From an uncultured Prevotellaceae bacterium (GTDB lineage Bacteria; Bacteroidota; Bacteroidia; Bacteroidales; Bacteroidaceae): a stretch of DNA of 24,047 nt. The position numbers and the translations under genes were made by a program. The stretch lies in the NCBI GenBank assembly GCA_902775075.1, contig CACYKX010000020.1, positions 1 to 24,047 of the forward strand. Reading direction: 5' to 3'. The notes beneath the pieces were generated by a model, which saw nothing but the letters and a program-made list of their open reading frames with translations, searched no databases and was not told the DNA's origin. This document shows positions 570 to 19,049 of the stretch, piece by piece (position 1 is the first letter of the stretch; every line of letters starts with the position of its first letter).

Positions 570-1133
570 ATGCAAATTAACCAAATTGACAAAGATACTA
601 TTGACGATCTTGCAATGGGGAGTAGAAAGGCTTTCCAGAGGATTTTTAATATCTTTTACCCAAAGGTTTATGCCTTTGCCCTTGGATTCATCAAGAACGA
701 AGCTGATGCCGAGGATATCTCTCAGATGGTATTTATTAATCTGTGGGTAAAACGCAATAAATTGCAAGGGGTTGAGAATCTCGATGGTTATGTTTATATT
801 GTAGCTAAACATACTGTGTTGAATTATATTGCTTCGCGCAAGGTGACAGTTGATATTGATAGCATTACGGAAACAAGTGCCTCAGGGACGTCACCTCAGG
901 AGTTGATAGAAGCCAGTGATATGAGGCTGTTGATAAGTATGATAGTACAAAATATGCCTCCACAGCGACAGACAATTTATAGGATGAGTAGAGAGAAAGG
1001 CCTTAACAATGATGTGATAGCAGAAAAGTTAGGTTTACAAAAGAAAACTGTAGAGAACCATTTGAATTTGGCATTGGGTGATATACGTAAAATGCTAAAA
1101 ATCCTTATTTTATTGTTATTGAGTTGGGAATAA
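570..1133 (+). CDS. ECF-type RNA polymerase sigma factor
   Basis: A 187-residue extracytoplasmic-function sigma factor that would direct RNA polymerase to the promoter of the downstream uptake genes. Region 2 spans about residues 21-90, with the typical AEDISQMVFINLW stretch at 47-59. Region 4 spans about 120-175, with a helix-turn-helix around NNDVIAEKLGLQKKTVENHL. The protein ends in a short hydrophobic tail (ILILLLLSWE), which I have seen in other Bacteroidetes members of this family. It is followed after 76 bp by a FecR-type anti-sigma gene and then by a SusC protein with an STN domain, the standard order of a trans-envelope signalling system. Two candidate promoters precede it. The family call is firm; the inducing signal is not visible. 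Confidence 0.93.
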   Translation: MQINQIDKDTIDDLAMGSRKAFQRIFNIFYPKVYAFALGFIKNEADAEDISQMVFINLWVKRNKLQGVENLDGYVYIVAKHTVLNYIASRKVTVDIDSITETSASGTSPQELIEASDMRLLISMIVQNMPPQRQTIYRMSREKGLNNDVIAEKLGLQKKTVENHLNLALGDIRKMLKILILLLLSWE

Positions 1134-1209
1134 CATGAATTTGTGTTGTCTAATATAATAGTTATAAACGATAGAGTTCTAAGTGAGTTCTGTAATAATA
1201 TGAATTGGT

Positions 1210-2196: not shown

Positions 2197-2223
2197 TTAA
2201 TTTAATATTTTTTAACCTTTTAA

Positions 2224-2260
2224 CTTTGGGGGTTGGGGAGTATTTGTAGTGTCTTAAATT
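2224..2260 (+). promoter_or_regulatory. Candidate ECF-dependent promoter of the susC-like gene
   Basis: The 104-bp gap after fecR holds a G-rich element (ACTTTGGGGGTTGGGGAG at 2223-2240) inside otherwise AT-rich DNA, then TATTTGTAGTGTCTTAAATT at 2241-2260. CTTAAATT occurs twice, at 2253-2260 and 2269-2276. No match to the housekeeping -33/-7 pair is convincing, which fits recognition by the locus's own ECF sigma factor. This is inferred from position and base composition only. Confidence 0.35.
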
Positions 2261-2300
2261 TAGATACCTTAAATTAATTATTTAAATTTAAAAACCTAAA

Positions 2301-5300
2301 ATGAAAGAAAAAAAACGTATTCTAAAGACGGCTGCCGCCATGTTGATAGTTGGTAGTCTATTTCTACAAGCTCAGAATGTGTCCTTTGGTAATGAGCGCA
2401 CGACGCTGAAAAAAGCTTTTGAGAAAATAGAAGCGGTGAGTAGCTACAAAATTGCTTATAATGCTTCTAAACTGAATGTGAATAGAACAGTAAAACTGGA
2501 CAAGAAAAACAAAACCGTGGTCCAAGCGCTAGAAGATTTACTGAGAGACACAGACTGTACATTTGAAATGAAAGGCAACCTGATTATTATCGTGCCCAAA
2601 AAGTCGGAGAATGTAAAGCAAAATAAAAGCATAAGTAGAGTGAGGATTTCGGGTGTGGTAACAGATCAAAATGGCGAGGCTGTGATAGGTGCTACAGTGG
2701 GAGAGAAGGGAACCACTAATTGTACCGTTACAGATGTCAATGGTCACTATAAGCTAAATGTTCAGAAAGGTGGTCTCATACAAGTTAGCTATATAGGTTT
2801 CATTACCCAGAACCTGAAAGTAGGAGGCACAAATGAACTTAATGTCACATTGAAAGAAGATCAGCATAACCTGAATGAGGTTGTCGTCGTAGGATATGGT
2901 CAGATGAAGAAAAGCGACCTCACAGGTGCTGTGGCATCGGTGACGGTCGATCAAGATAAAGCCGTATATGAAAGTGGTGTGGATCATTTGTTGCAAGGTA
3001 ATGCCCCTGGTGTGTATGTGAATTCGGGTGACTCGCAATTGGGTGGTCTTATCAATGTGCGTATTCGTGGAACATCAACATTGAATGGAAATAAGGAACC
3101 GTTGTATGTGATTGATGGCATTATCATGAACGATGCTACAGAAGATGCCGGAAATGCTGTAAGCGGAGGTACAGGTGGCGACCCTGTGCAGACTACCCAG
3201 AGTGGACTTACGGGTCTTAACCCTCAAGATATACAGAGTATTGAGGTATTGAAAGATGCTTCGGCAACGGCAATTTATGGTTCACGTGCATCAAATGGTG
3301 TTGTACTTATTACTACTAAAGAGGGCAAAACCGGTAAGGCAAAGGTCAACTTCTCTACAGGTTTCTCGTTGGGTAAAGCGACAAAACACATCGATGTACT
3401 TGATGCAGAAGAGTATGTGATATATAAAAATGAGAAGAGTGAAGGCTATTATAGTGATACGTTTCATCCTGTGTCACGTGATTGGCAAAAGGAATTATAT
3501 CATACCGCTCTAACGCAGTCGTACCGTTTATCGGTGAGTGGTGGTAACGACAAGGCCAACTATTTTGTGGCAGGTGGTTATCTCGATAATGATGGTATCA
3601 TCCGCAATACGGGACTATCACAGGCCGACCTACGCGTGAACTACAAATATAAACTGAGTAAGAATATGAGTTTGAAGGGTACATTCAGTTTGGTGCGTCG
3701 TATCAATGACATGACCGCAGGTACCGATGGACTTGGAAACTCTACCACTAGTCTAACTCGTCACGCTATATTAGCAAAGCCATTTACAGATGTAAATCCT
3801 GATGATGAGAATGATACAGGTTTGCAACTCATGCCAACAAATTGGTTGACAGACTATAAAGACCATTCTGAGGAAAATCGTGCTGTAGCATCAGTGGCCT
3901 TCGACTATAAGATTGTCAAGGGCTTGACATTTCATCTGATGGGATCGTATGACACCCGTGACAAGACACGTTCACGTTGGTATGGTACTGGCGTATATAC
4001 CGGTATGAAAGTGAAAGGACAATTGGGTATAAGTGAATTAAAAAGTCAGAAAAAGGCTCTTGAGGCATTGCTCTATTATGATTATACTATAAATGATGTG
4101 CATCATTTGTCGGGTACGGCTGGTGTGACCTACGAGCGTCGCGATGTGAATCGATATGGTATGGTAGGTGAGGATTTCTCTGTGTTGAGTTTGGGAATTG
4201 ACGGTATAGCCTATGCCAACAAAACCTACACAAATTCACATTCACTTACCAACGAGACTACCGCATCATCATTATTGCGCGTGAATTATAACTATATGGA
4301 CCGTTATCTTGTAACGTTGACAGGTCGTGTGGATGGCTCGAGTAAGTTTCAAAAGAACAACCGCTACAGTTTCTTCCCATCATTGGCACTCGCATGGCGT
4401 GTCAGTCAGGAGAATTTCTTGAAAGACAGCAAGTGGTTGAATAATTTAAAGATAAGGATGGGATGGGGTATGACAGGTAATCAAGGAATCTCAGCCTATG
4501 CCACCCAAAACACTTATAGCAATGTGGAGTATTCTACAGGTTCTGGTTCTAATCTCGTAGGTATGGCTCCAGATAAAATAGCTAATCCCAATCTGAAATG
4601 GGAAGCAACTTCACAGGTGAATGCCGGTATCGATTTTGGTGTACTAAACAATCGTTTGACCTTTAGCATCGATGCGTATCATAAGGAAACCAACGATATT
4701 CTTCAGTCAATGAGTACCGCTGTATCTACTGGGTTTAGTTCAATCTATGTAAACTGTGGGTCTATTCAAAACAATGGTGTGGAAGTCGCTGTTAATGCTG
4801 TACCCATAACTACAAAGGATTTTACTTGGAATATCGGAGCTAACCTGTCACACAACAAGAATCGTATAACCGATCTTGGATTGCCTGAAACAAAATATGG
4901 TACAGAATACTATCAAGCTTATTATGGAACAAATTTGTCGTACTTCGGTTCGGCAGCTTTTCCTGTAAACATCTTCATCAAAGGCAAGCCTATCGGACTA
5001 TTCTGGGGATATAAGACCAATGGTATTTTCCAAAGTGATGAAGAGGCTAACGGACTTGTGCATAATGGAAATAAGCTGACGGCTGGTGACATCGCTTATG
5101 TAGATATCAATCATGATGGAGTTATTAATACAGAAGATCGTGTGATTCTTGGCGATCCGAATCCTGATTTCACCTTTGGCTTCAACACGTCTTTAACCTA
5201 TAAGGCTTTCACTCTCTCGGCTCAGTTCTATGGTTCAGTAGGCAACGATTTGGTGAATGCTAACCTACTTGATAACACCAATACATATTATGATTATAAT

Positions 5301-5648
5301 ATTTTAAAAGAGGCATACTATGAGGCATGGCGTGCAGAGAGTCCAAGCATAAAATATCCAAAACTTGGTACACCTTTGAATGAACTTACAGACCGAATGG
5401 TGGAAAATGGTAGCTTTTTGCGCATGAGTAGTTTGAGTCTTACCTGGAATATGCCTGTACGCAAGTGGAAAGCAATAAACGGATTACAGCTTACTCTGAC
5501 AGGTCGCAATCTGTTTACGATTACAAACTATTCCGGTTACGATCCTGATGCCAACAGTTTCTCTAATGACTCTAAACGTGTCGGCATCGACTATGGTAGC
5601 GCACCTGTTACCCGTTCGTATAGTTGCACGGTAAATGTAACCTTTTAA
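2301..5648 (+). CDS. SusC/RagA-family TonB-dependent transducer with STN domain
   Basis: A 1115-residue outer-membrane receptor that imports a bound ligand using TonB energy. A signal peptide covers about residues 1-25 (LFLQAQ). An STN (secretin/TonB short N-terminal) domain spans about 29-98, which marks it as a transducer signalling to FecR. A carboxypeptidase-regulatory-like beta domain spans about 114-190. A TonB-box-like NEVVVVGYG lies at 192-200, the plug runs to about 340 (QDIQSIEVLKDASATAIYGS), and the barrel ends in SCTVNVTF with the usual terminal Phe. The SusD partner starts 58 bp downstream. The ligand cannot be told from sequence; the adjoining phosphatase gene suggests a phosphorylated compound rather than a plain glycan. 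Confidence 0.95.
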   Translation: MKEKKRILKTAAAMLIVGSLFLQAQNVSFGNERTTLKKAFEKIEAVSSYKIAYNASKLNVNRTVKLDKKNKTVVQALEDLLRDTDCTFEMKGNLIIIVPKKSENVKQNKSISRVRISGVVTDQNGEAVIGATVGEKGTTNCTVTDVNGHYKLNVQKGGLIQVSYIGFITQNLKVGGTNELNVTLKEDQHNLNEVVVVGYGQMKKSDLTGAVASVTVDQDKAVYESGVDHLLQGNAPGVYVNSGDSQLGGLINVRIRGTSTLNGNKEPLYVIDGIIMNDATEDAGNAVSGGTGGDPVQTTQSGLTGLNPQDIQSIEVLKDASATAIYGSRASNGVVLITTKEGKTGKAKVNFSTGFSLGKATKHIDVLDAEEYVIYKNEKSEGYYSDTFHPVSRDWQKELYHTALTQSYRLSVSGGNDKANYFVAGGYLDNDGIIRNTGLSQADLRVNYKYKLSKNMSLKGTFSLVRRINDMTAGTDGLGNSTTSLTRHAILAKPFTDVNPDDENDTGLQLMPTNWLTDYKDHSEENRAVASVAFDYKIVKGLTFHLMGSYDTRDKTRSRWYGTGVYTGMKVKGQLGISELKSQKKALEALLYYDYTINDVHHLSGTAGVTYERRDVNRYGMVGEDFSVLSLGIDGIAYANKTYTNSHSLTNETTASSLLRVNYNYMDRYLVTLTGRVDGSSKFQKNNRYSFFPSLALAWRVSQENFLKDSKWLNNLKIRMGWGMTGNQGISAYATQNTYSNVEYSTGSGSNLVGMAPDKIANPNLKWEATSQVNAGIDFGVLNNRLTFSIDAYHKETNDILQSMSTAVSTGFSSIYVNCGSIQNNGVEVAVNAVPITTKDFTWNIGANLSHNKNRITDLGLPETKYGTEYYQAYYGTNLSYFGSAAFPVNIFIKGKPIGLFWGYKTNGIFQSDEEANGLVHNGNKLTAGDIAYVDINHDGVINTEDRVILGDPNPDFTFGFNTSLTYKAFTLSAQFYGSVGNDLVNANLLDNTNTYYDYNILKEAYYEAWRAESPSIKYPKLGTPLNELTDRMVENGSFLRMSSLSLTWNMPVRKWKAINGLQLTLTGRNLFTITNYSGYDPDANSFSNDSKRVGIDYGSAPVTRSYSCTVNVTF

Positions 5649-5706
5649 AGGTTAATAGAAGAAAAATGAAAAAACAAGAAGGTAAAAAACTCAAAACAAT
5701 ACGACA

Positions 5707-7272
5707 ATGAAAAAAATCATTATATATTCGTTAGTACTGTTAAGTATGATTTCTTTTGTTTCATGTAATGCCATACTTGAAGAAGATATAGATTCTTTCC
5801 CTTCGCCATCGATTACTTACTCTAACGATGAAAGTGTAGAATCAGCATTAACAGGTTGTTATCATGAACTAATAAGCTATCAATTATTCGGTTCAGACTA
5901 TACAACTATTTTTTGTACTGCCGGTGGAACATGTATCAATACAAGTTCATCATACAACGATATGAGAGCTCAAAAGTGCGAACCCGACAATAAGTATATT
6001 GGTAGATTATTTAAATCACATTATCGTGTGATAGCCGATTGTAATGACTTGCTCGATAAGATCAATGATAGCGGAGCTTCTGATATGCTGAAAGCACGCG
6101 CTCAGGGCGAGGCTTACTTGTTGAGAGGTATGATGTTCTTTAATCTAGTGCGTGCATTCGGTGGCGTGCCTCTTCGTATTAGTTCAATAACAAGTACAAC
6201 GCTAAATATGCCTCGTGCCTCTGTGGAAGCAACCTATCAGCAGATTATTGATGACTTGGAAAAGGCCGCTACATTCCTACCCGAAGTGAATCCTATCGAA
6301 GGACGTCCAAATTGCTATGCTGCCCACGCCTTGTTAGCGAAAGTATATCTGACGATGGCTAATGGTGAGGAGAATTCTCCATATTGGCAGAAATGTATCG
6401 ATGAGGCACAAAAAGTGTATGGCCACTATCAGTTGGTGCCTCTGCAAACCCTCTACAATCCACAAAACCGCAATACAGCCGAGTCAATAATCGAAATTCA
6501 GTTCTCCGACATCAACGGTAATACCTATACACAGGGTTTTGCTCCTACCGAGAGCGATTATACTCCTAATTCAGCAAGTGCACCTTATGGGCGCTATCGT
6601 CCATCAAAATATATCTTTGATACTTGGAGAAAACAATATCCGGGTGATCCACGTATAGAAGAGGGAATCATCTATGATAGTTATACAAAGAAAGGTGGTA
6701 AAGAAACCGTAGAAATATATCCAAAGTATAATAGTAGTAAAGGAAATTCACGTATGTGGGTTTATATCAAAAAGTATCTAGACTCCCGATATGTGGCACA
6801 ATATACGCCTCAAAACTTTATCTATCTGCGTTATGCCGATGTGTTGCTGATGTTGGCAGAGGCTACCAATGAGGTAAGTGGACCGGAAAAAGCTTATAAA
6901 TATGTGAACGAGGTGTTAGCTCGTGCACGCAATAGTGCTACTCCAGCAGCTGCAGAACCTGCCGATTGGAGTGGTATGACAAAGGAAGAATTCCGTCATC
7001 GTATTATGTACGAGCGCTTTTATGAATTATTAGGAGAACAGACAGAATATTTCGACATGCGCCGTCGTGGTTATCAGTTTATGCTCGACTATTGGATAGC
7101 ACATAACGCTCATCCCGCGAACTGCAAAAATCCGTCATCTCCGAAATATAAGGAAAACTGGTTTGAATGTACTCCCGAGATGGCTAAGCGCGCAATGTTG
7201 CTACCGTTTCCAACACTTGAGATTAATTCGAACAACGCTATTAGTGATAAAGACCAAAATCCTGGATATTAA
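5707..7272 (+). CDS. SusD/RagB-family ligand-binding lipoprotein
   Basis: A 521-residue surface lipoprotein expected to form the lid of the SusC channel and bind the ligand. The signal peptide ends in SFVSC with the lipidated Cys at residue 20. Family hallmarks include the region around EAYLLRGMMFFNLVRAFGGV, the tetratricopeptide-like AAHALLAKVYLTMANGE, the YLRYADVLLMLAEA stretch, YERFYELLGEQTEYFDMRRR, and the C-terminal DQNPGY. It lies 58 bp after the susC-like gene and 9 bp before the phosphatase, so the three are almost surely cotranscribed. The family is certain; specificity is not visible. Confidence 0.95.
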   Translation: MKKIIIYSLVLLSMISFVSCNAILEEDIDSFPSPSITYSNDESVESALTGCYHELISYQLFGSDYTTIFCTAGGTCINTSSSYNDMRAQKCEPDNKYIGRLFKSHYRVIADCNDLLDKINDSGASDMLKARAQGEAYLLRGMMFFNLVRAFGGVPLRISSITSTTLNMPRASVEATYQQIIDDLEKAATFLPEVNPIEGRPNCYAAHALLAKVYLTMANGEENSPYWQKCIDEAQKVYGHYQLVPLQTLYNPQNRNTAESIIEIQFSDINGNTYTQGFAPTESDYTPNSASAPYGRYRPSKYIFDTWRKQYPGDPRIEEGIIYDSYTKKGGKETVEIYPKYNSSKGNSRMWVYIKKYLDSRYVAQYTPQNFIYLRYADVLLMLAEATNEVSGPEKAYKYVNEVLARARNSATPAAAEPADWSGMTKEEFRHRIMYERFYELLGEQTEYFDMRRRGYQFMLDYWIAHNAHPANCKNPSSPKYKENWFECTPEMAKRAMLLPFPTLEINSNNAISDKDQNPGY

Positions 7273-7281
7273 TAACATATA

Positions 7282-8565
7282 ATGATGAAGAAATTTTTTC
7301 TATCTGTAGCATTTACGCTATTGACTATCTTGGCTTGGGGACAACGTACTCCAGCTTTAGAACAACTGAAAAATGACCCACGAAAAGCTTATGGTACAGA
7401 TTATCCGTATAGGCAAACTAATGATGTAAAACTTACCAAATGCCCTGATGGATATAAGCCATTCTATATCAGTCATTATGCCCGTCATGGTTCGCGCTAT
7501 TATTGGAGTAATAGTCTATATAAGGAACTTGACACTCTGCTTACTATAGCTCATGAAAGACGGCAATTGACATCAATAGGTGAAGCCTTTCGCCAAAAGT
7601 TTATGATGGCCAAAGATGAATTGCTGACAGGGGTTGGTGAGTTGACCGACCTCGGCTGGCAACAGCATCAAGGCATTGCCCGAACGATGTATAACAATTT
7701 TCCGGAAGTTTTCGAGAATGGTGGTAAAGTTTTGGCTATTTCATCGCTGGTAGGCCGTTGTATCATCAGTATGTCGGCCTTTTGTCAGGAATTGGTACAA
7801 TGTAATCCTAAGATTGTAATTCGTGAACAGTCGTCACGCTTTACGCTTGATGGGGTAGTTCCTACTGATGGACAAAATCCCATCAAGCACAATTATCCTA
7901 AGGACCTAAAACCAAGATATGAAAAGAATAGTAATCTCTTTAAAATAAAAGACGACCTGCGGCAAAAGTTGCTCAAACGTATGTTTACAACCACAGAAGG
8001 ATTACCGAGCAAACCACATCATATTGCCAGCAATCTAATAAGGTTATATACATCACTTCCAAGTATTAATCACGAAGGAATGATGGACAACCTTATTACC
8101 GATCAAGAAATTGCAGATAGATGGGAAGGCGAAAATCTGAGTTCATATTCATGGGTCTTTGGTTCGCAATATCAGATGATTCCAATCTTGCAAGATATCA
8201 TGAAGAAAGCTGCTGCCGTTATTGATGGAACAAGTGACCATATAGTGGATTTGCGATTTGGCCACGACACGTGTATTGGTCCACTCACCGTATTGATGGG
8301 TATCAATGGTGCTGACATTGATCCTGTAAATCCTAATGAGGTAAAAGATTGCTACCAAAATTGGGAGACTTGTAAGGCGAGCAACATTCAATTAATATTT
8401 TATCATGGAAAGAAATCTACGGATGATATCCTTGTTAAATGTCTGATGAATGGTGAGGAGGCTTCTTTACCTGTTCCTACCGATAATTATCCATATTATA
8501 AATGGAACGATTTTCAGAAATTTTATACAGCTCGTTGTTTAATAGCTTGTAAAAGTTCGAATTGA
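7282..8565 (+). CDS. Secreted histidine acid phosphatase (phytase/MINPP-like)
   Basis: A 427-residue member of the histidine phosphatase superfamily, clade 2. It has a signal peptide of about 20 residues (LLTILAWG, cleaved before Gln21). The catalytic signature HYARHGSRY carries the phosphohistidine nucleophile His69 with Arg68 and Arg72. The downstream HD pair at 328-329 (FGHDTCIG) would supply the proton donor. Relatives include inositol polyphosphate phosphatases such as the MINPP of Bacteroides thetaiotaomicron, but MINPP enzymes usually carry HAE rather than HD, so substrate class is open (phytate, sugar phosphates, other phosphomonoesters). It starts 9 bp after the susD-like stop codon. 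Its product would free phosphate or a dephosphorylated moiety in the periplasm or at the surface. ATG at 7285 is an equally possible start. Confidence 0.88.
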   Translation: MMKKFFLSVAFTLLTILAWGQRTPALEQLKNDPRKAYGTDYPYRQTNDVKLTKCPDGYKPFYISHYARHGSRYYWSNSLYKELDTLLTIAHERRQLTSIGEAFRQKFMMAKDELLTGVGELTDLGWQQHQGIARTMYNNFPEVFENGGKVLAISSLVGRCIISMSAFCQELVQCNPKIVIREQSSRFTLDGVVPTDGQNPIKHNYPKDLKPRYEKNSNLFKIKDDLRQKLLKRMFTTTEGLPSKPHHIASNLIRLYTSLPSINHEGMMDNLITDQEIADRWEGENLSSYSWVFGSQYQMIPILQDIMKKAAAVIDGTSDHIVDLRFGHDTCIGPLTVLMGINGADIDPVNPNEVKDCYQNWETCKASNIQLIFYHGKKSTDDILVKCLMNGEEASLPVPTDNYPYYKWNDFQKFYTARCLIACKSSN

Positions 8566-8705: not shown

Positions 8706-9374
8706 CTATTTCATTTTATCGGAGTTGAGAATCGTAATTGTTTTCCCATCGATTTTGATTGCTCCATTAGCTTCGAATTCCGACAGACAACGCAGAAGCG
8801 AGAATTTCTGTATACCGAACATATCAGCTAGCTCTTGTCTGCTTTTGTCTAGTTTGATGATGCGACTTTGCTGCTCTTTAGCGGCCTTGATGAGAAAATA
8901 AGCCACCTTCTCGCGTACCGTAAAAAGCGACAGCATACGCAGCTTTTGGGTGAGGAAAACATCTATGGAGGAGAGTCGGCGAATGAAATTCATACGCAAA
9001 TGTTCGTTCTCGTCGATAAGTCGTTTCAGTTCCGAAGGCATCATGCGCAAGATCGTTGTCGGTTTGGCCGTCTCCACGCTTACCGGCATGGCATTATTCT
9101 CGGCGAAGATGAAGGCCGGAGCGATCAGCATGCAAGCTTTCAGACGGTCTATCTGAACTTGTTTGCCCGACAGACCGGTCATCCTGGATATCAGCTCACC
9201 TCGGAGAATGAAGTCGGCATAGCGGCAAGGCAATCCGGCCAACGTGTAGATTTCTTTGGCCGGATATTCCACGATTCTATATTCCGTAGAACTCAGCATC
9301 TCTTCGATTTCACGAGTAGAAAATCCTTCGAAGAGAGGACTTGTCTGTAGTATCTGGTATATTGACTCTTCCAT
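8706..9374 (-). CDS. Crp/Fnr-family transcriptional regulator, HcpR-like by context
   Basis: A 222-residue regulator with an N-terminal cyclic-nucleotide-binding-type sensor fold (about 1-125) and a C-terminal winged helix (about 150-215; recognition region around SRQELADMFGIQKFSLLRCL). No Fnr-type Cys cluster is evident, so oxygen sensing by an iron-sulfur cluster is unlikely. It lies 94 bp downstream of hcp on the same strand, beyond a hairpin terminator. Crp/Fnr proteins next to hcp are typically HcpR regulators that sense nitric oxide or nitrite stress, as known in Porphyromonas gingivalis. The palindrome ahead of hcp is a natural candidate operator. The family is secure; the HcpR role is inferred from neighbourhood. 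Confidence 0.85.
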   Translation of the reverse strand: MEESIYQILQTSPLFEGFSTREIEEMLSSTEYRIVEYPAKEIYTLAGLPCRYADFILRGELISRMTGLSGKQVQIDRLKACMLIAPAFIFAENNAMPVSVETAKPTTILRMMPSELKRLIDENEHLRMNFIRRLSSIDVFLTQKLRMLSLFTVREKVAYFLIKAAKEQQSRIIKLDKSRQELADMFGIQKFSLLRCLSEFEANGAIKIDGKTITILNSDKMK

Positions 9375-9430
9375 TTCAATCCGTTTTTATGATGATAACG
9401 GACATTTCCCTCATTTTATTGCATGAAAAC

Positions 9431-9459
9431 AATCCCCCGATAATAGTTATCGAGGGATT
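9431..9459 (-). terminator. Hairpin terminator after hcp
   Basis: AATCCCCCGATAA (9431-9443) and TTATCGAGGGATT (9447-9459) pair at 12 of 13 positions around a 3-nt loop. On the minus strand the stem is followed by a short T-rich stretch (GTTTTC). It starts 9 bp after the hcp stop codon. Confidence 0.75.
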
Positions 9460-9468
9460 CTTGTTGTC

Positions 9469-11124
9469 TTATAAAATATAGTTTTCGAGGTCCTCTTCTA
9501 CTGTTGAGTTTCCGGCAATACCGAAGTTCTCAACCAGTATCTTGAGTACACCTTCTGAGATGAACGCTGGGAGGGTAGGACCGAGATGAATGTTCTTGAC
9601 ACCTAAATGTAATAGAGCGAGGAGTACGATGACAGCCTTCTGCTCATACCATGCGATATTGAAGAATATCGGCAGGTCGTTGATGTCGTTGGCCCCGAAG
9701 ATTTCCTTCAACTTGAGAGCCACAACAGCCCATGAATAAGAGTCGTTACATTGTCCTGCGTCGAGCACACGCGGAATACCGTTGATGTCGCCAAGGTTCA
9801 GTTTGTTGTACTTATATTTTGCGCATCCACTTGTAAGGATTACCACATCCTGTGGCAAGGCTTTGGCAAACTCCTCATAATAGTTTCTACTCTTCATGCG
9901 ACCATCACAACCACTCATCACCACGAATTTGCGGATGGCGCCACTCTTCACGGCCTCTACGATCTTGTCGGCAAGAGCGAAGACCTGAGCGTGGGCAAAA
10001 CCTCCTACGATCTTTCCGGTTTCTATCTGCTGAGGAGCCTCACAAGTCTTGGCCATGGCGATGACCTCAGAGAAGTCTTTGTGCCCATTGGCATCCGCCT
10101 CGATATGTTTCCATCCAGGGAATCCCGTAGAGTTCGTCGTAAACACCCGATGCGCATAACTAGCATTCTTAGAAGGTGGTACGATACAGTTGGTCGTGAA
10201 CACGATCGGCCCGTTGAAGCTTTCGAATTCCTCCTTTTGCTTCCACCACGCATTACCATAGTTGCCCACGAGATGCTTATACTTCTTAAGCTGAGGGTAG
10301 TAGTGGGCCGGTAACATCTCACCATGTGTATACACGTCCACTCCCGTACCCTCAGTTTGTTGAAGTAAATCCTCGATATCCTTGAGGTCGTGACCGGATA
10401 TGAGGATGCCCGGATTCTTTCCGGTGCCTATATTAACTTGAGTAATTTCCGGATTTCCGTAAGTCTCGGTATTGGCTGCATCGAGCAACGCCATCACGTC
10501 GACACCATATTTGCCCGTCTCCAAGGTGATGTCGAGGAGCGATTGCATATCACTTTCGGGGTTTGCGATAACGCTCAACGCCTTGCAGATGAAGTCTATG
10601 ATATGCTCATCACGCTTGTTGAGTCGTGCTGCGTGCTCATAGTAAGCCGCGATACCCTTCAGTCCCAAAGTGGTGAGTTCCTTGAGCGAACGCAAGTCAG
10701 CATCCTCGTTGCGCAAGATACCCTCACGTTCACCCTCAGCCTCATAGTCAGTCTTCTCGCCGCCCCATCTTACCTCCTGGTAATCCGGCAAGGCCACAGC
10801 ATGATCGCGGGCAATCGACAAGAGTTGCTTCTTGATGCTGATACCCTCATCCACCTTGTTCAATATCGCCTGATCGTCGAAGTTAGCATTCGTGATCGTA
10901 GAGAATAGTGCATCCGACAAAAACTCGCCCACACGAATCTTCTCATAGTCGAGCTGCTGCTTGTTGAGTTCGTGAGCGATGGCTCCGACACCACGGACTA
11001 CACTCAACAACAAATCCTGCCATCTGGCCGTAGAAGCCTCTTTGCCACATACACCCTTGATGGTACAACCGGTTCCCTTTGCCGTCTCCTGACATTGGAA
11101 ACAAAACATTTTATTGTCTGTCAT
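9469..11124 (-). CDS. hcp: Hybrid cluster protein (hydroxylamine/nitric oxide reductase)
   Basis: A 551-residue Hcp, the usual length for the family. It binds a [4Fe-4S] cluster and a 4Fe-2S-2O hybrid cluster and reduces nitric oxide and hydroxylamine, protecting anaerobes from nitrosative stress. The N-terminal cysteines C8, C11, C20 and C26 ([14 protein letters not shown], then CTIKGVC) give the short spacing of class I enzymes from strict anaerobes. Further family motifs include [42 protein letters not shown] and [11 protein letters not shown]. No Hcr-type reductase gene adjoins it, so electrons must come from another donor. The promoter carries a palindrome (separate entry) and a hairpin terminator follows. 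Confidence 0.96.
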
Positions 11125-11247: not shown

Positions 11248-13377
11248 TTAGGCGTAGGAATGCAATCCCCCGAGGACATAGTTTACGCCGAAATAGGTCA
11301 TGATGATGCTGAGAAACGCCAACACCATATAGAGATGATAGATCTTCGGACGACGGAATATCGGGAGTGTGTGTGTATGCAAAACTACGGCATATATCAT
11401 GAAGGTGATGAGCGCCCACGTCTCCTTAGGGTCCCAACTCCAATAAGTTCCCCAACTGATGTTTGCCCATATAGCGCCGATGAAGATGCCAAGACCCATG
11501 GTGACGATGGCTGGATAGAGCATCAGACGACTCAACAGCTGTAGTATCTCCGTCTGCGACTTCATCAACATTCCGAGAACTCCGCACACGAAGGTGAGGG
11601 CGAGTAGGGCATAACTCATCATGATGATGCTCACGTGGATGCACAATAGAGGCGAATTCAATACCGGCATGATATGTCCGATGGCCGGGTCCATCTGGTT
11701 GATGTGGCTCACGAGCAACAGAAATCCCGAGAGTAAGAATCCAAAGAGAGTGAGATAGTATGATGGTAATGTTGGGAGCCGAAATGAGAACAAGATACAA
11801 AACAACATGATAAACCAAGCCACGCTCAGCATCGACTCATAACCGTTGCTTAACGGGATGTTGTCGCTGATGATCCATCGAAGGATAAGAGAGAAGGAAA
11901 GGGCGAGAAAGGATATCGCCAGCATGATCTCGAAACATCTGTTTATCGTCTTATTGCTGATTCTCATCATTCTCTTTTGGGGATATGCCAATAATCGGAT
12001 GAGTATCAGAAGGGCGAGGATGCCTAAGGTGAGATTCACGATGAACAGAATCGTAGCAAAAGGTATTTGGTTGTTGATGCGTTCAGCCTCTACTTGTATC
12101 GTAGAAGGTATACCCGCAACCGATGCTCTCTGCCTGTTGATATTCTCGTCAACGATTTGCATCAATCGCGTGTTGTTGCCACTATCGGCCGAACGATAGA
12201 GTTCGTTGATACTCTTCGTCTGAATCAAGTTCAACGCCTTACCCATACGCAATTCAGCTATCAGGTTTACCTTGTCGTCGAGACGGGCCGCCTGCTCGTG
12301 TAAGGCATCATGACAGCCTTGGCGATAATATTCCTCTACAAGTTGTTTAAGTATGTAACCATTCGAACTAAACAATTCATTTACAGATACATAGTCGTCA
12401 AGGTGCAAGTAATCCTTTAGTTCGCTACCTTTCACCTTGATAATCTTCTCCTGAGCCCATTGGTCGCCCCAGAAGATGAATCCCGTAAGGATTTGTTCCG
12501 GAGAACATCCCTTGTAAGAACGCCTTCCCGAAATCTTGCGCGTAAACTCATAAGCATAGGTTTGTATCTGACAGATGCGGGTGTTGTATTGCATAAACAT
12601 CTCACACATATGATTGGCCACAGGACGCGGCAAAACCGTGGTTTGAGCCTTGAGCGACGTGGCGGAGAAGAATAGGACGAAAAGGAAAGCCCCCTTGCGC
12701 AATAAAGGATTGCGGAGGAGTCTGCGGAATGTGCCCTTAGGGTCGACGAGCATCCAGATGAGCGAGATGAAGAGTAGACCATATCCCGTATATGTGACGG
12801 GTATTCCCCATGGGTCGCTATTGATACATAACGTACTACCGTTGGCATCTTCATCATACGAGTTTTGATAGATGCGGATACGATCATGACAGAAGATATG
12901 ATTCATGGAAACGACACCTCGCGTACTTTCGCCCTTCTCCTTGACAGTAATCGTAGAGGCGTAATCGGCCGCGGCATCTGACCCCTCGTATTTCTGAATA
13001 TCGAAGTTCTCCAGTTTGATGCTGAAAGGCAGAGGCTCGAGTTTCATTCCCTCATCGCCTTCCTCAAGATATGTCTGAGTGGTTTCGCCGACACGCAGAT
13101 GTACAACCCCTCGGAAAGAATAAAGATGGGTGAGGAGCGCTCCCACAAGGATGACGACAAAGGAAAGATGAAGTAGAAGGATATTCTTTGATGCGATCTT
13201 AGTCTTCAGAATATAAAGAATACTGGTAACGGAAAGTACGACCCAAAGCGAACAAAACCACCATGAGCCATATAAATGCGCCGAAGCATAAGGAGTTCCT
13301 ACAAATTTCTCGCTCAGAGAGATCGCTACCATGGCGAGGATGACACAAATGTAGGAAATTATAACAAGTTTCTTCAT
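11248..13377 (-). CDS. ccsBA: CcsBA (ResB-ResC fusion) cytochrome c maturation protein
   Basis: A 709-residue inner-membrane protein of the System II cytochrome c biogenesis pathway, which moves heme across the membrane and attaches it to CXXCH motifs. The N-terminal ResB/CcsB-like part (about 1-245) has membrane segments near 5-22, 40-60, 68-88, 195-213 and 230-246. A soluble central region lies at about 250-440. The C-terminal CcsA/ResC part (about 445-709) has a series of membrane helices and the WWD heme-handling motif WGTYWSWDPKETW at 642-654. It ends in the typical GLHSYA, with His706 a likely external heme ligand. It follows the di-heme cytochrome gene by 64 bp, with a hairpin between them, so its obvious client is its neighbour. 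Confidence 0.92.
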   Translation of the reverse strand: MKKLVIISYICVILAMVAISLSEKFVGTPYASAHLYGSWWFCSLWVVLSVTSILYILKTKIASKNILLLHLSFVVILVGALLTHLYSFRGVVHLRVGETTQTYLEEGDEGMKLEPLPFSIKLENFDIQKYEGSDAAADYASTITVKEKGESTRGVVSMNHIFCHDRIRIYQNSYDEDANGSTLCINSDPWGIPVTYTGYGLLFISLIWMLVDPKGTFRRLLRNPLLRKGAFLFVLFFSATSLKAQTTVLPRPVANHMCEMFMQYNTRICQIQTYAYEFTRKISGRRSYKGCSPEQILTGFIFWGDQWAQEKIIKVKGSELKDYLHLDDYVSVNELFSSNGYILKQLVEEYYRQGCHDALHEQAARLDDKVNLIAELRMGKALNLIQTKSINELYRSADSGNNTRLMQIVDENINRQRASVAGIPSTIQVEAERINNQIPFATILFIVNLTLGILALLILIRLLAYPQKRMMRISNKTINRCFEIMLAISFLALSFSLILRWIISDNIPLSNGYESMLSVAWFIMLFCILFSFRLPTLPSYYLTLFGFLLSGFLLLVSHINQMDPAIGHIMPVLNSPLLCIHVSIIMMSYALLALTFVCGVLGMLMKSQTEILQLLSRLMLYPAIVTMGLGIFIGAIWANISWGTYWSWDPKETWALITFMIYAVVLHTHTLPIFRRPKIYHLYMVLAFLSIIMTYFGVNYVLGGLHSYA

Positions 13378-13441: not shown

Positions 13442-15142
13442 TTAGATAGAGCGAAGGAATTTCACGATAGCGTCTCGATCGCTCTTAGGGAGATTATAAA
13501 ACTTCAAAGCCGAACTGTAGGCATGACTGTTCTTGCTATAAGCATGCCACATGATAGCCTCAACCTCGTTGCGCGCACGACAATCGTGCAGACGATCCTC
13601 GGCACCCGTGTTGACAAGCGACAAGCCACGTCCCCAAAGAGGAGTGGTACGACACCAACTACCATGGATATCATTCTTCATATATAGTTTGTGTTGCATC
13701 ATATCGCTATAAGGATAGATGGTCTGATGAGGATAGCGAGGCAAAGGTTTACCCGCACATATCTCAGGTTCCCAATAGTCGTCATCACCAGTCTTCCACG
13801 AAGGACGATGGCAACTAGCGCATCCAATCTCCATGAACAACTTCTTACCACGTTGTACGTCCTTGTCGTTCAAATTACGCGCGCGAGGAATAGCCAATCC
13901 ACGATGCCATACCATGAAGTTGTAGAATTGTTCTGCCGTCTGTTCAGGCGCAAAGTTATGCCACTTATTATCGAACTGGTTCGTCTTTGGGTCGAGCAAG
14001 TTGCGTACGGCATCAGCAATACCCGCGTCTGTACCATCTGCATAATAAGGAGAAGATGGGTCAGCCTTGATTTGTGCGATAACATCCGGATTCTCGCTCA
14101 TAGCCTGAGCCCATGCAGAAGTAGTATAGAGATAAGGACGATCAGGACGACTCACGTTCGTGATATTCCAAATGGCGTTAGCGCCTGGGCCATCCTGTAA
14201 CGTGCCACGTGTGAGAGCGTATGTGAATCGCTTCACAAACTTCCTATCGCCAGCCTTATACCATGCGTTAGCCGTAAAGTCGTTGGTAGAAGCATCCCAG
14301 AAGTTGCTATTCACATATTCTGCCACATTCATTCCCGCACGCTTGAAATAACCCGCTGTCTTGGCATATTGCGCACGAATAGAATCATTAGGGATAGCAT
14401 CCAGCAAACCCGTACCGATGACACCTATCGTAGACTCCAGACGAACATCATAGTCGGTAGGCTGAGGTTTCGTGTTGAAAGCCGATTGAGCGATGGTCAC
14501 CTCCGGATAAATCAAATCGTAAGTCTCGCCATCAGGAAAATGCATAGGCAGCCCACTCTCCATCGTCGTGACATGCTTCCATTTGATGTTGATACCATTC
14601 TCGTTGACAGGCGGAAGGAAAGGCGCCGAAGCCTGAGTTTGAGGCATAGCCGTCACCTCGGAAACATACGGACCATCGTTAGACCCCTCGTGGTTAGGAT
14701 GATAGATTACCAACAGATATCCGTTGCCATTGGCATAGCTCGTGCGATATTGAGCCTGCCACTTGCCATGACCATATTGAGGATGACAATCGAAACAACT
14801 ACTACGAACAGAGGCAGGACCGAGTCCCTTGAAAGGTGCCTTGTTCTCCGTATAGTTACGCTCAAACATCTGCTCTCCGGCAAAGAAGGCGTTGAATAAT
14901 GACGGATTTTCATCTACTACAGGAGCTTGGTCGGAATATGCGCTCGAACCGATGTTCTCCGTAGTTCCTAATTTACCTCCAGGATACCATTCTCCGGCAG
15001 AAAAGTTACCTGTAGCTTCCCCTACATAATTTGCCTCGGGTGTCTCATTGGTCTGTATACCCGTGGCATCATCGCTACAGCCCGTCAGCAAGGTAGCTAA
15101 AGCGACTGTAGCGGATGATAAAAAATATATACTTCGTTTCAT
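13442..15142 (-). CDS. Di-heme oxidoreductase lipoprotein (COG3488/DUF1111 family)
   Basis: A 566-residue c-type cytochrome of the family annotated as di-heme or thiol oxidoreductase. The signal peptide ends in LLTGC, with lipidation at Cys22 followed by SDD. That acidic start resembles the lipoprotein export signal of Bacteroidetes, so it may be surface-exposed. Two heme-binding CXXCH motifs are seen: CFDCH at 116-120 and CASCH at 441-445. The C-terminal region with TTPLWGRGLS, RLHDCRA and AIMWH is typical of the family. The start codon lies only 6 bp after the imelysin stop codon, so the two are translationally coupled or nearly so. Family members are predicted peroxidases or electron-transfer proteins and often accompany imelysin genes. 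The actual reaction is unknown. Confidence 0.9.
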   Translation of the reverse strand: MKRSIYFLSSATVALATLLTGCSDDATGIQTNETPEANYVGEATGNFSAGEWYPGGKLGTTENIGSSAYSDQAPVVDENPSLFNAFFAGEQMFERNYTENKAPFKGLGPASVRSSCFDCHPQYGHGKWQAQYRTSYANGNGYLLVIYHPNHEGSNDGPYVSEVTAMPQTQASAPFLPPVNENGINIKWKHVTTMESGLPMHFPDGETYDLIYPEVTIAQSAFNTKPQPTDYDVRLESTIGVIGTGLLDAIPNDSIRAQYAKTAGYFKRAGMNVAEYVNSNFWDASTNDFTANAWYKAGDRKFVKRFTYALTRGTLQDGPGANAIWNITNVSRPDRPYLYTTSAWAQAMSENPDVIAQIKADPSSPYYADGTDAGIADAVRNLLDPKTNQFDNKWHNFAPEQTAEQFYNFMVWHRGLAIPRARNLNDKDVQRGKKLFMEIGCASCHRPSWKTGDDDYWEPEICAGKPLPRYPHQTIYPYSDMMQHKLYMKNDIHGSWCRTTPLWGRGLSLVNTGAEDRLHDCRARNEVEAIMWHAYSKNSHAYSSALKFYNLPKSDRDAIVKFLRSI

Positions 15143-15148
15143 ATCTGA

Positions 15149-16444
15149 TTATTTCTGACGGATAATCCATGTGCCTGCGGCATTCAAAGCTTCATCTAGA
15201 GCCTGAACTTTTTCGATACAATTCTTTACTTGTGGGTCTCCAGGAGCGTCGATGAAAGCCTTACCACTATTCTTGGCAGACTCAAGGGCTGCGATAGCTT
15301 CGTTGAGCGCGTTATTCAAGGCTGTATATCCCTCATATTTATGCTGTTGCATATAGTTCATCAAAGAGTTCTTAGCAGGAACGGTCGCATTGATATCACG
15401 CAATCCATAAAGAGAATTCTTGATAGAGTAGATATTGTCTTGATAGTCCTGGAAAGAACGCTTGCTATAAGGAGACTCGATATAGTCGGCTGCATCCTGA
15501 TCGTCGCCTTGACCGGTAGCGACACGATAAGCCTGTCCCAACTTTTGGGTGTATACTTCCTGACAGATATCAGAACAACCGCCAACGAAGATGTTCTGTA
15601 AGGTCTCTTGCCATGTGGCGAACATACCATTTGCAGAACCTGCACTTATAACCTCAAGACCATAGCCGATACCCTTGCTTGACAAACCGGCATAATGAGT
15701 ACCGTCGAGCGTCCATTTGGCTGCGTTTACGGTATTTTTTACGCTCTCGCTAGCCTTGTCTCCCATCCAGCCATAGGCGAGTAGGGATGTCATATTGCGA
15801 AGGTCTCCGGCAACAGCAACGGCGAAGGCACATTCGTCAAGGGTCTTGATGGAGGTAAGTTCCTTCTCGGTCTCGTTTTCTGCTGTAAGGGCAGCCAAGG
15901 TACGATTAGCACCATTACGGAAGAGGATGAACTCCAATCCATGGAAACCCAATACAGAGTCGAAATCATGGTTCTTCTTATATACGAACTTGTCGGCCTG
16001 TGCTCCGTTGATACCGGCAATAACATCCTTATCGTTAAGAGCTTTTACCAACTGGTCATGATCGAGTGGCCATGAGTCGATATGTGGGTCGATATTGTTA
16101 TCGCTAGCGGCACCATAGAGGAAAGATTCGCTCTCTTCCCAATATTTACGGGCTGCCTTGAAAGCGTTACAAGCTGCGTCGATATCGGCCTGTGTCAAAG
16201 TTCCGGCCTTGCGCTTAGTATATACGTTCTGACAAGTCTCATAAAGGGTCTGTGTGTTTGCGGCCAAATCCGTATAAGTAGGTTCTACGACATTAGCGAC
16301 ATAGTTTTCAGCAATAGCCTGCATCTCAGAGGATGTTGTTATTTCTGTGTTTTCGTTGTTGTCATCACTACTACAAGAGGTAGTGGTTAATGTCATCGTG
16401 CTTATTGCCGCGAAGAGCAAAGCATACTTAAAATTCTTTTTCAT
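15149..16444 (-). CDS. Imelysin-family lipoprotein (IrpA-like, M75)
   Basis: A 431-residue lipoprotein with signal peptide ending TTTSC. Cys24 is followed by SSDD and more acidic or Asn residues, which suggests export to the surface. Imelysin hallmarks are YWEESESFLYGA at 101-112, IDSWPLD at 122-128 and the GXHXXE motif GFHGLE at 166-171. Despite the peptidase-style name, relatives are mainly linked to iron (iron-regulated protein A) and no protease mechanism is established. It lies 39 bp after the porin gene and 6 bp before the di-heme cytochrome gene, forming an outer-membrane/surface module. Iron binding or delivery is the likeliest role, by family association only. Confidence 0.92.
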   Translation of the reverse strand: MKKNFKYALLFAAISTMTLTTTSCSSDDNNENTEITTSSEMQAIAENYVANVVEPTYTDLAANTQTLYETCQNVYTKRKAGTLTQADIDAACNAFKAARKYWEESESFLYGAASDNNIDPHIDSWPLDHDQLVKALNDKDVIAGINGAQADKFVYKKNHDFDSVLGFHGLEFILFRNGANRTLAALTAENETEKELTSIKTLDECAFAVAVAGDLRNMTSLLAYGWMGDKASESVKNTVNAAKWTLDGTHYAGLSSKGIGYGLEVISAGSANGMFATWQETLQNIFVGGCSDICQEVYTQKLGQAYRVATGQGDDQDAADYIESPYSKRSFQDYQDNIYSIKNSLYGLRDINATVPAKNSLMNYMQQHKYEGYTALNNALNEAIAALESAKNSGKAFIDAPGDPQVKNCIEKVQALDEALNAAGTWIIRQK

Positions 16445-16483: not shown

Positions 16484-17794
16484 TTATAGGAAGAAACCCT
16501 CATATACCACACCTATATTGATAGAAGGTTCGTTATTATAGGTATTCTTGAATTTGCGCAGATTATATTCTGCCTTGATACCGATCTGTGGAACAGGATG
16601 GTAGTTGATGCCGGCGGCAAAAATCTGTTTGTTGGTCCATTGCTTTGTCGTGGCGTGAATATAAGAATCGTAATATTCGTAATGACCGAAGACATAAAGT
16701 TTCTTGTTGTCGGCACGGAGAGACTCTATCTGCGAGAAGATATCGTAGCCAGCTTCGAGCATGGTGGCAATAGCATGACTACCGAAATATTTTCCGTTGC
16801 CCGACTCATAAGGTTTTACCAACGAGGTGGTAGGATATACATAAGAAGTAATCTTGTTGGCATCACTCACATAACCATAGTCTGCGTTTCCACGAACGAT
16901 CCAGTTGTGAGCATGATATGTGAAGTCGATGGTTCCGATATACACATTACCCTTGATATTCTTGGCGTCTCCGCTCTCCATATCGTGAGGTACGGCGTTG
17001 TGCATGGCTTGCCCGTAATAGCCGCTCATACCGATGCGCAACCCCGGAATGGAATAGTTGTCGAGACGACCGGCTACAGCATATTTGTTGGCTACATCAA
17101 ACTCGAAAGGGGATTGTGTGCCACCTTTTATCCAGTTTGTTCGGCTAAAGTTGAAGGCGTTCAAACCTGCGAGTAATTGAGCCTCATAGCGGAATTTACC
17201 CAAGCGTCCCCAAAGAGAAACACCAGTCTGATGCCAGGTACAAGGAAGAATTGTGTTTTCTCCTTCCGGGCGATATACGGTAAAGAAGTTTAGAGGTTCA
17301 TGATTTGCGTTGGTCAATCCGATTGGTACTACGATATGTCCCATCTTCAGATTCAAGGCACGAGAGAAAGATTTCTGCAACCAGAACTGTTCCAGTTCCA
17401 CTTCACCCCCTCGTTCATTCTCCTGTTCAAACTCGATAGCCTCGTCGGCTTCATATTCAATAGAAGAACCACTTCCGCCATGTTCAAACTCGATCTCACT
17501 ACCTAAGGTCCAACCTTTGCCGAAGTCGTAGCCGAGATAGATGACGGCATGAGGAATGTCGAAACGTCCATGACTAGGGTCGTTCTTGTACTTCTGAGGA
17601 ACCGTATATCGGTTGCCGTTGTCGCTATAGAAGTTTCTGCTATAGGCAGCCTCTCCATATCCTCCGATGCTGAGGCGTTTTCCTCCGGCATGATTCATCA
17701 CAGAATCGGCCGCATGAGTCTGGGCATCTGCGTATATACCACTTGTAAAGGTCATGATTCCAGCAAGAATGCTGATTTTGAATGAATTATTCAT
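16484..17794 (-). CDS. Outer-membrane beta-barrel protein (porin-like) with acidic loop
   Basis: A 436-residue protein with a signal peptide of about 24 residues (GIYADAQ). Many alternating hydrophobic strands with aromatic girdles follow, for example LSIGGYGEAAYSRNFY, HAVIYLGYDFGKGWTLGSEI, KMGHIVVPIGLTNANHEP and IFAAGINYHPVPQIGIKAEY. It resembles the phosphate-selective-porin (O/P-like) superfamily of Bacteroidetes. Residues 100-136 hold 14 acidic residues in 37, likely a loop and possibly a cation-binding site. The protein ends in FFL rather than in Phe. It is the first gene of the imelysin/di-heme cytochrome operon, and its promoter carries the 48-bp element also found before the flavodoxin gene. 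The transported substrate cannot be read from sequence. Confidence 0.85.
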   Translation of the reverse strand: MNNSFKISILAGIMTFTSGIYADAQTHAADSVMNHAGGKRLSIGGYGEAAYSRNFYSDNGNRYTVPQKYKNDPSHGRFDIPHAVIYLGYDFGKGWTLGSEIEFEHGGSGSSIEYEADEAIEFEQENERGGEVELEQFWLQKSFSRALNLKMGHIVVPIGLTNANHEPLNFFTVYRPEGENTILPCTWHQTGVSLWGRLGKFRYEAQLLAGLNAFNFSRTNWIKGGTQSPFEFDVANKYAVAGRLDNYSIPGLRIGMSGYYGQAMHNAVPHDMESGDAKNIKGNVYIGTIDFTYHAHNWIVRGNADYGYVSDANKITSYVYPTTSLVKPYESGNGKYFGSHAIATMLEAGYDIFSQIESLRADNKKLYVFGHYEYYDSYIHATTKQWTNKQIFAAGINYHPVPQIGIKAEYNLRKFKNTYNNEPSINIGVVYEGFFL

Positions 17795-17834: not shown

Positions 17835-17910
17835 CAAAAGTACGGATCTTTACATTTCTATACAATACTTAAAAATTGGTAAAAGCGTGGATACCTACTT
17901 ATGGGGATGG
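17835..17910 (-). promoter_or_regulatory. Promoter and shared 48-bp element of the porin operon
   Basis: On the minus strand a -7 TACTTTTG (17835-17842) and a -33 TATTG (17863-17867) are 20 bp apart. The element 17863-17910 spans the -33 and the DNA upstream. It shares 38 of 48 bases with 19002-19049 ahead of the flavodoxin gene. It contains GGTA (17878-17881), 10 bp, TACC (17892-17895), with the dyad centre about 55 bp upstream of the predicted start. Invariant parts are CCCCA, AAGTAGGTA, TACC and ATTTTTAAGTATTG. The placement fits binding of an activator. Confidence 0.75.
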
Positions 17911-17926
17911 TAATATAAAAAATAAA

Positions 17927-17948
17927 AGGCACGTTTCTCAACGTACCT
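17927..17948 (-). terminator. Terminator of the flavodoxin-DUF2023 operon
   Basis: AGGCACGTT (17927-17935) and AACGTACCT (17940-17948) pair at 8 of 9 positions with loop TCTC. On the minus strand the stem is followed by TTTTATTTTTTATA, a good U-rich tail. It lies 59 bp after the DUF2023 stop codon. Confidence 0.8.
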
Positions 17949-18007
17949 AATATCTATTATACAAAAACATTATGAACTTTATTATTCGTGAACTCTTCGA
18001 TCCCCAC

Positions 18008-18367
18008 TTATTGCAAGTTGGCTAAAGAAGAATGGACTGCTTTATTCTTTCTTTTGCAAAAACGTTCACATTGGGCACAAATGTCATATCCCAGCATAGC
18101 GCCAAGAATGAAATCTTCTTCCGGAGAAAGTTGGCATAATGGTTTTGTCACAATTAGTCTGATCGCATCCAGACATTCTCGTTTGCCGAAATAAAGGTTC
18201 AGACGGTCGTTTCCCACGGGTTGGAGTATATATTCTATACCTTGATGCTGTAGACGCTCAAGGGCCTCCTCCTCGTATTTCTTGTTGAAGGTGTAGAGTA
18301 TCATGTTGCGTACTCCTTTTCTATACTCGTAAATGTGGTTAGCGAGAACCTTTAACTCTATTGGCAT
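18008..18367 (-). CDS. DUF2023 family protein with Cys-rich motif
   Basis: A 119-residue cytoplasmic protein with no signal peptide or membrane segment, matching my recollection of the DUF2023 family, whose function is not established. The N-terminal half (about 1-65) reads as a small alpha/beta fold (HIYEYRKGVRNMILYT, GIEYILQPV, LNLYFG). The C-terminal part holds LSPEEDFILGAMLGYD followed by CAQCERFC, with Cys97, Cys100 and Cys104 (CX2CX3C); Cys65 and Cys78 are further cysteines. The motif could bind a metal or an iron-sulfur cluster, which is inference. It starts 32 bp after the flavodoxin stop codon and shares its operon, suggesting a role with flavodoxin, in electron transfer or in iron-poor growth. 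Confidence 0.8.
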   Translation of the reverse strand: MPIELKVLANHIYEYRKGVRNMILYTFNKKYEEEALERLQHQGIEYILQPVGNDRLNLYFGKRECLDAIRLIVTKPLCQLSPEEDFILGAMLGYDICAQCERFCKRKNKAVHSSLANLQ

Positions 18368-18399
18368 AATTATTTATATGTACGGGATAATAGGAAAAA

Positions 18400-18894
18400 C
18401 TAAAGAGATTTCTTGATGCTATCGATCCATGCGTCGATACGACCTTCTGTTTTGTCGTCCTCGTTGACGTCGTCAAGGGCAAGACCTACGAATTTACCGT
18501 CAACAACGGCTTCGCTATCATCATAGTTGTATTCGTCGGCAGATACTCCGGGAAGTACATTTGCGCCGGCTTCTATAGCGGCATCATAGAGTTCTTTCAT
18601 ACCGCCACAGAAGGTGTCGCAATAACTTTCGCTATCGCCACAACCGAATAGGGCAACGGTTTTGCCGGATAATCCTGCGGCTTTCAAAGTCTTTATGCCA
18701 TCATACCAGTCGTCTTGTAGTTCTCCGGCTCCCCAGGTAGAGGTGCCCAGAATCAAGTTGCTGTTACTATTGATGTCATCGGTCTTAAGGTTTTGAACAT
18801 CAATAGCTTCTACGCCCAATTTCTCGGCGATAGTTTCTGCGATTGTCTGACATGTTCCTGTAGAGGAACCGTAGATTACTATTGTTTTTTCCAT
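18400..18894 (-). CDS. fldA: Flavodoxin
   Basis: A 164-residue long-chain flavodoxin, an FMN-carrying low-potential electron carrier that substitutes for ferredoxin when iron is scarce. The FMN phosphate loop is GSSTGTCQ (residues 9-16), followed by the flavodoxin segments LILGTSTWGAGELQDDWYDG, TVALFGCGDSESYCDTFCGG and VGLALDDVNEDDKTEGRI. I chose the ATG at 18894 because the protein then begins MEKTIVIYG as in other flavodoxins. A longer in-frame start at 18930 would add a 12-residue basic extension not typical of the family. It is transcribed with DUF2023 from a promoter bearing the 48-bp element shared with the porin operon. Confidence 0.95.
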   Translation of the reverse strand: MEKTIVIYGSSTGTCQTIAETIAEKLGVEAIDVQNLKTDDINSNSNLILGTSTWGAGELQDDWYDGIKTLKAAGLSGKTVALFGCGDSESYCDTFCGGMKELYDAAIEAGANVLPGVSADEYNYDDSEAVVDGKFVGLALDDVNEDDKTEGRIDAWIDSIKKSL

Positions 18895-18973
18895 CGTTTT
18901 ATTAATTTTAGGGTTTATTTTTCGGGCCACCCTTATAAGTATAGGATATGCCTCATGAACAATTTCTTGGTTG

Positions 18974-19049
18974 CAAAGATACGGGCAATCGTAGAAATCT
19001 GCAATACTTAAAAATGGGTAAAGATATTTCTACCTACTTTTGGGGATAG
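18974..19049 (-). promoter_or_regulatory. Promoter and shared 48-bp element of the flavodoxin operon
   Basis: On the minus strand a -7 TATCTTTG (18974-18981) lies 20 bp from a -33 TATTG (19002-19006). The element 19002-19049 carries GGTA (19017-19020), 10 bp, TACC (19031-19034), and the same flanks (CCCCA, AAGTAGGTA, ATTTTTAAGTATTG) in the same spacing to the -33 as at the porin promoter. The predicted transcript has a leader of about 75 nt. Confidence 0.75.

Follow-up and report, generated by a model that had tools for sequence, protein, structure and literature searches.

A 20-bp operator shared by fldA-DUF2023 and porin-imelysin promoters of an uncultured Prevotellaceae bacterium, with a hemerythrin-HTH protein as its likely regulator

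The operators of NarL/FixJ-family proteins follow a 7-2-7 layout of TACYYMT-N2-AKRRGTA heptamers and serve class-II activation. These proteins have a GerE-family HTH in common with the candidate regulator discussed below, and their operators share with the site described here inverted half-sites, TAC/GTA cores, a short spacer and a centre that we would place near -42; NarL itself (chains 1je8 and 8u3b, compared by name only) has a phospho-receiver domain where the fused form of the candidate has a hemerythrin domain. The CdhR locus (PG1236-1237; BT0519-0520) resembles the candidate in uniting a hemerythrin with a DNA-binding regulator, here as two adjacent genes, and is iron-regulated. CdhR has been reported as an activator of hmu (PMC10101095; PMC10434189), PG1237 (CdhR) has been called a repressor (PMC2671838), and the passages considered from PMC10434189 and PMC10101095 give no binding site.

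The Bacteroidetes iron stimulon (PMC10434189) shares with the genes considered here fldA-DUF2023, porin/thiol oxidoreductase/M75, TonB, TetR-ABC and methyltransferase genes. That study reports that fldA/DUF2023 go up at low iron by 159-164-fold in P. intermedia and by 326-598-fold in Bacteroides thetaiotaomicron (B. theta; RNA-seq), BT2473-2482 (CcsA, porin, thiol oxidoreductase, M75) by 63-324-fold and BT0519-0520 by 16-20-fold; in P. intermedia, TetR-ABC, TonB and methyltransferase genes are induced too, some porins fall 2-3-fold, and no porin-imelysin operon is named there as induced. Given the low-iron induction in B. theta, there is a relative in which fldA-DUF2023 and the porin-imelysin operon type both belong to the iron-starvation genes. 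The words "motif", "promoter" and "binding site" have no occurrence in the main text of the paper (PMC10434189).

The window, by which we mean the whole 24,047-nucleotide stretch of contig CACYKX010000020.1 that was analysed, carries both operon types on its minus strand, fldA-DUF2023 at 18894-18008 and porin-imelysin-diheme oxidoreductase-ResB/CcsA at 17794-11248. Gene order and strand make the ResB-CcsA fusion the probable last gene of the porin operon. The porin-like gene has no Pfam or NCBIfam match; its homologues have the element upstream and an imelysin-like gene next. The features are as follows.

19029..19048, minus strand: distal tandem operator copy, fldA promoter (centre 26 bp upstream of the proximal one)
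19003..19022, minus strand: proximal operator, fldA-DUF2023 promoter, overlapping the -33 box (core register in 81/81 fldA promoters)
18974..18981, minus strand: -7 box TATCTTTG, fldA promoter (from the sequence and the fldA promoter set)
18400..18894, minus strand: fldA, long-chain flavodoxin (NF006738 / TIGR01752)
18008..18367, minus strand: DUF2023 gene (PF09633, E=1e-45)
17890..17909, minus strand: distal tandem operator copy, porin promoter
17864..17883, minus strand: proximal operator, porin-imelysin-diheme promoter, overlapping the -33 box (pattern and conservation)
17835..17842, minus strand: -7 box TACTTTTG, porin promoter (from the sequence)
16484..17794, minus strand: porin-like gene, first of the second operon (named in the original prediction, and by resemblance)
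15149..16444, minus strand: imelysin, Peptidase_M75 (PF09375)
13442..15142, minus strand: di-haem oxidoreductase, DHOR (PF06537)
11248..13377, minus strand: ResB-CcsA cytochrome c assembly fusion

Beyond the cytochrome assembly gene, at 8706-11124, a Crp-type regulator gene adjoins a hybrid-cluster protein (Prismane) gene, which we take to be an HcpR-hcp-like pair. Inspection by eye of 570-8565 finds an ECF sigma / anti-sigma pair, a SusC/SusD-like pair and a histidine-phosphatase (phytase-like) gene, possibly a phosphate-scavenging locus.

Promoters of Bacteroidetes consist of a -33 box, 19-21 bp and TAnnTTTG. Both window promoters fit this layout, TTG-N20-TAnnTTTG being exact in each on the minus strand, and the spacing is equal in 81/81 fldA promoters. 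The original prediction, made from the letters alone, held that two similar blocks occupy the same place in both promoters, over the -33 box and with a 20-bp gap to the -7 box, and that the remaining DNA is less alike; this proves correct. The blocks at 17863-17910 and 19002-19049 are identical at 38/48 bases, as against 7/20 in the spacer to the -7 box and 15/40 in the 40-nt leader; when one intergenic region was shuffled 12 times by dinucleotide blocks, the best ungapped 48-mers reached 24-27 identities. A pattern derived from both copies, with up to 3 mismatches, matches these two places only in the window and nowhere in 100 shuffles. The further proposal of one dimer-type operator common to both operons and covering the -33 box is likewise borne out, with a different internal anatomy.

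The best reading of each block is a tandem pair of 20-bp imperfect inverted repeats, AATACCTA-N4-TAGGTATT, with centres 26 bp apart and the proximal one over the -33 box, rather than the single 48-bp element first proposed; the distal copy is optional (34/81 fldA promoters). The GGTA-N10-TACC dyad that had been taken for the binding unit is there in its letters, as the right half of the distal site and the left half of the proximal one; as a unit we reject it, because the distal copy is optional and because the left half fits spacer 4. The direct-repeat relation of the two copies, 26 bp apart, suggested AraC-type tandem direct repeats; this reading was also set aside, the distal copy often being missing and the proximal site being itself an inverted repeat. 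Singly, the four window palindromes have 4, 4, 4 and 5 mismatches of 16 and are not unusual in the window, which elsewhere has one with 3, two with 4 and others with 5; the evidence for the site is its promoter register and its conservation elsewhere, not the single palindromes.

The anatomy was derived from 173 non-redundant of 207 sites, fldA promoters included, the left half lying outside the pattern used to find them. In this set the conserved stretch of the left half runs from -16 to -7, and its best match to the complement of TAGGTATT is at spacer 4 (score -8.6, as against -15.2 for the next best), so that the inverted repeat expected for a dimeric reader is present in the set and imperfect in single sites. 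The left half is often AATCAYTA. Set against the NarL heptamers, TACCTAY-TT-TTAGGTA nearly fits, whereas the frequent AATCAYTA left halves do not. Among eight sites examined in genomes G035 and G061, four read TTTCACTA-N4-TAGTGATT, two AATCACTA-N4-TAGGTATT and two neither; in the first four, the complement of the right half TAGTGATT is AATCACTA, a common left half, and their own left half TTTCACTA fits it at 6/8 positions. If the -7 box is centred at -7, the operator centre would lie near -42. Because the right half overlaps the -33 box, promoter constraint may account for some of its conservation.

A direct GGTA-type copy stands 26-32 bp upstream in 34/81 fldA promoters, as compared with 7/81 at a control offset; 24 others have an ATACCTA-like string within 130 bp (a count that has no control), and 23 have neither. 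At L061, L063, L068, L076 and similar rumen Prevotella loci, where the core is GAGTATTG, the direct distal copy gives way to an inverted string resembling ATACCTACTTATGATTAAT, which lies upstream of fldA within 130 bp. In a Hoylesella oralis genome (L164) element plus promoter occurs twice, 231 bp apart, before one porin gene.

Conservation was followed in 80 flavodoxin relatives, the best of 437, whose titles give Prevotella-type genera, Prevotellaceae or, once, Bacteroidales; with the window they make 81 fldA(-DUF2023) promoters. Within 900 bp upstream, [AG]GTATT-N21-TAnnTTTG is found once in 81/81; spacers of 17-23 were allowed and a single spacing was found. Flanking bases that the pattern does not force are conserved as well (A at -16 to -13, TTTT at -5 to -2), and at loci in which DUF2023 comes first, such as L102, the site precedes DUF2023. 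Genomes were scanned with TTTTAGGTATTG-N20-TANNTTTGC, the reversed pattern serving as control. Twelve genomes gave 194 matches versus 21 at up to 3 mismatches, and 60 genomes from the family of S. albensis, the closest relative among the best 80 of 437 (FldA 94% identity), gave 138 versus 3 at up to 2 mismatches, with 47/60 genomes hit. Across 80 genomes of the order there were 67 matches versus 28 controls, and on account of this smaller excess the regulon is claimed firmly for the family of the closest relative only. Within that family the site is, in our judgment, a genuine operator of an iron-starvation regulon.

The genes behind the sites bear out the expectation that, in related genomes, the element would be enriched before iron genes. 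The regions taken from the 12 genomes contain 86 distinct sites, and for 82 of these an ORF starts within 320 bp. The largest target cluster (27/82) is represented by a protein with a TonB plug domain; the others are fldA (8), DUF2023 (1), porin (5, in 4 genomes, an imelysin-like gene next by eye), a Por_Secre_tail cluster (5), TetR (4), methyltransferases (4), enolase (3, by eye), hemerythrin-HTH (2) and 23 more that include PepSY_TM, ZIP, a flavodiiron-type protein and several hypothetical ORFs. The enolase-like genes, again by eye, follow the element directly at L090, L111 and L115 (X. ruminicola, S. albensis, S. baroniae), and there is no obvious reason for iron control of enolase. In the 60-genome set, 27/39 imelysin genes are preceded on the same strand by a site at 1529-1745 bp, where the porin promoter lies, as against 0/39 in the mirrored interval and 2 on the opposite strand; 12/39 have no site. 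HmuY was considered as a general target and rejected: within the order, only 4/30 HmuY-family loci have a match within 1.5 kb upstream, which speaks against the element at the reported CdhR target. Together with the low-iron induction reported for relatives in PMC10434189, this enrichment supports the iron-limitation regulon of the original prediction. That the regulon is "undescribed" holds in part: the iron response of both operon types had been published for relatives (PMC10434189), while neither the site nor a connection between it and a regulator was found in the titles and abstract openings searched.

Which protein, then, would read the site? The candidate joins a hemerythrin domain (PF01814) to a GerE domain (PF00196; NarL/LuxR-HTH); in at least 25/44 loci both parts lie in one protein, in contrast to the CdhR locus, which is the two-gene form. 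H88, H131, E135, H164, H209 and E213 are conserved at 95-100% across 41 homologues, a set selected from 42 loci with an expression that already demands HxxxE-type strings, and the hemerythrin domain is predicted to sense iron. At L161 (P. pallens) and L171 a second GerE-type regulator gene, this one lacking hemerythrin, comes after the fused gene. The regulator is matched in 57/61 family genomes, a few of them through the HTH only. Its recognition helix is nearly constant and has diverged in G035/G061, where the right half-site has also changed; these are too few events for any claim of covariation.

It is the genomic linkage that ties this gene to the site. The element precedes the hemerythrin-GerE gene in S. 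baroniae, P. pallens and S. albensis (63 bp upstream), and a match on either strand occurs in 18/30 regulator upstream regions as compared with 3/198 control windows taken elsewhere in the same loci, mostly coding (p=4e-16). In 12/18 of the linked loci the match faces the divergent gene only. Over the 30 regulator loci, the divergent gene is in 9 cases a porin adjoining imelysin, in 5 FeoA/B-like (called by eye, one with a gene between) and in 3 fldA; conversely, 16/39 imelysin genes have the regulator within 12 kb, in 12 cases divergently. Among the 80 genomes of the order, the 11 with a close regulator (E<=1e-50, a threshold chosen after the list was inspected) have 19 matches versus 2 controls and the other 69 have 48 versus 26; DUF2023 and the close regulator co-occur (8/16 vs 3/64, p=5e-5, with kinship uncorrected and the same post-hoc threshold). 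Within the family, motif presence tracks the regulator weakly (46/56 vs 1/4, p=0.03, some matches being HTH-only): 10/56 genomes with a regulator match have no site at up to 2 mismatches, and 1/4 without the regulator has one. Judged from sequence, assignment of the hemerythrin-HTH regulator to the site is likely.

A Fur-family repressor would account for much of this, iron-loaded Fur covering the -33 box and blocking transcription until low iron releases it: the position over -33 suits a repressor, and both the kind of target gene and the low-iron induction are those of a Fur regulon. The palindrome, however, differs from the usual Fur boxes. Against Fur stands also P. gingivalis, in which fldA rises 15-fold on hemin limitation and yet, in a mutant of the Fur orthologue Har, falls to 0.60 and does not rise, so that Har does not repress fldA as a Fur regulon would lead one to expect (PMC4222909). 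Har is without the usual Fur sensory site, a site that the same paper infers in B. fragilis Fur (PMC4222909), and its behaviour therefore counts against a Fur operator in a single, unusual species only. On balance we regard Fur as an unlikely reader.

We give similarly little credence to the idea that another dimeric regulator binds the site and that the hemerythrin-HTH gene is merely one more of its targets. The element does stand before the regulator gene just as it does before other targets, and the many loci in which it faces only the divergent gene would suit this reading; but the hemerythrin-HTH gene adjoins different operons of the regulon from genome to genome, matches are enriched where a close regulator is encoded, and the inverted repeat goes together with a NarL-type HTH. 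That the block reflects only a strongly constrained -33/-7 promoter, with no specific regulator, fits its inclusion of the -33 box and its rigid register, but seems very improbable given conservation for 16 bp upstream of GGTATTG, a left half that matches the complement of the right, and the many sites before iron-type genes.

The reading we favour, and consider probable, is thus that an operator centred near -42 is bound by a CdhR-type hemerythrin-HTH regulator that activates, at low iron, an iron-starvation regulon found widely across the family of the closest relative. A dimeric NarL/LuxR-type HTH protein, fused to hemerythrin or encoded beside it as in the CdhR locus, would bind the 20-bp operator, the promoter-proximal copy of which overlaps the -33 box and, in the window's two promoters, is accompanied by a second copy 26 bp upstream. 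When iron is scarce, the regulator would switch on fldA-DUF2023 and the porin-imelysin-diheme operon as well as TonB receptors and further genes, its own among them in some genomes. That it acts as an activator is plausible from the position near -42 and from the CdhR reports.

In animals, FBXL5 senses iron by a hemerythrin fold. We put at about even the chances of a broader scheme, in which the Bacteroidales iron-starvation response would run mainly through a hemerythrin-NarL-type activator and not through Fur, a diiron fold sensing cytoplasmic iron and its apo form activating a large regulon via class-II, often tandem, operators. With a defined operator and a named candidate regulator the proposal is directly testable; it predicts a regulon in common bacteria of the gut and mouth, and it places the porin-imelysin-diheme module and DUF2023 in the context of iron limitation.
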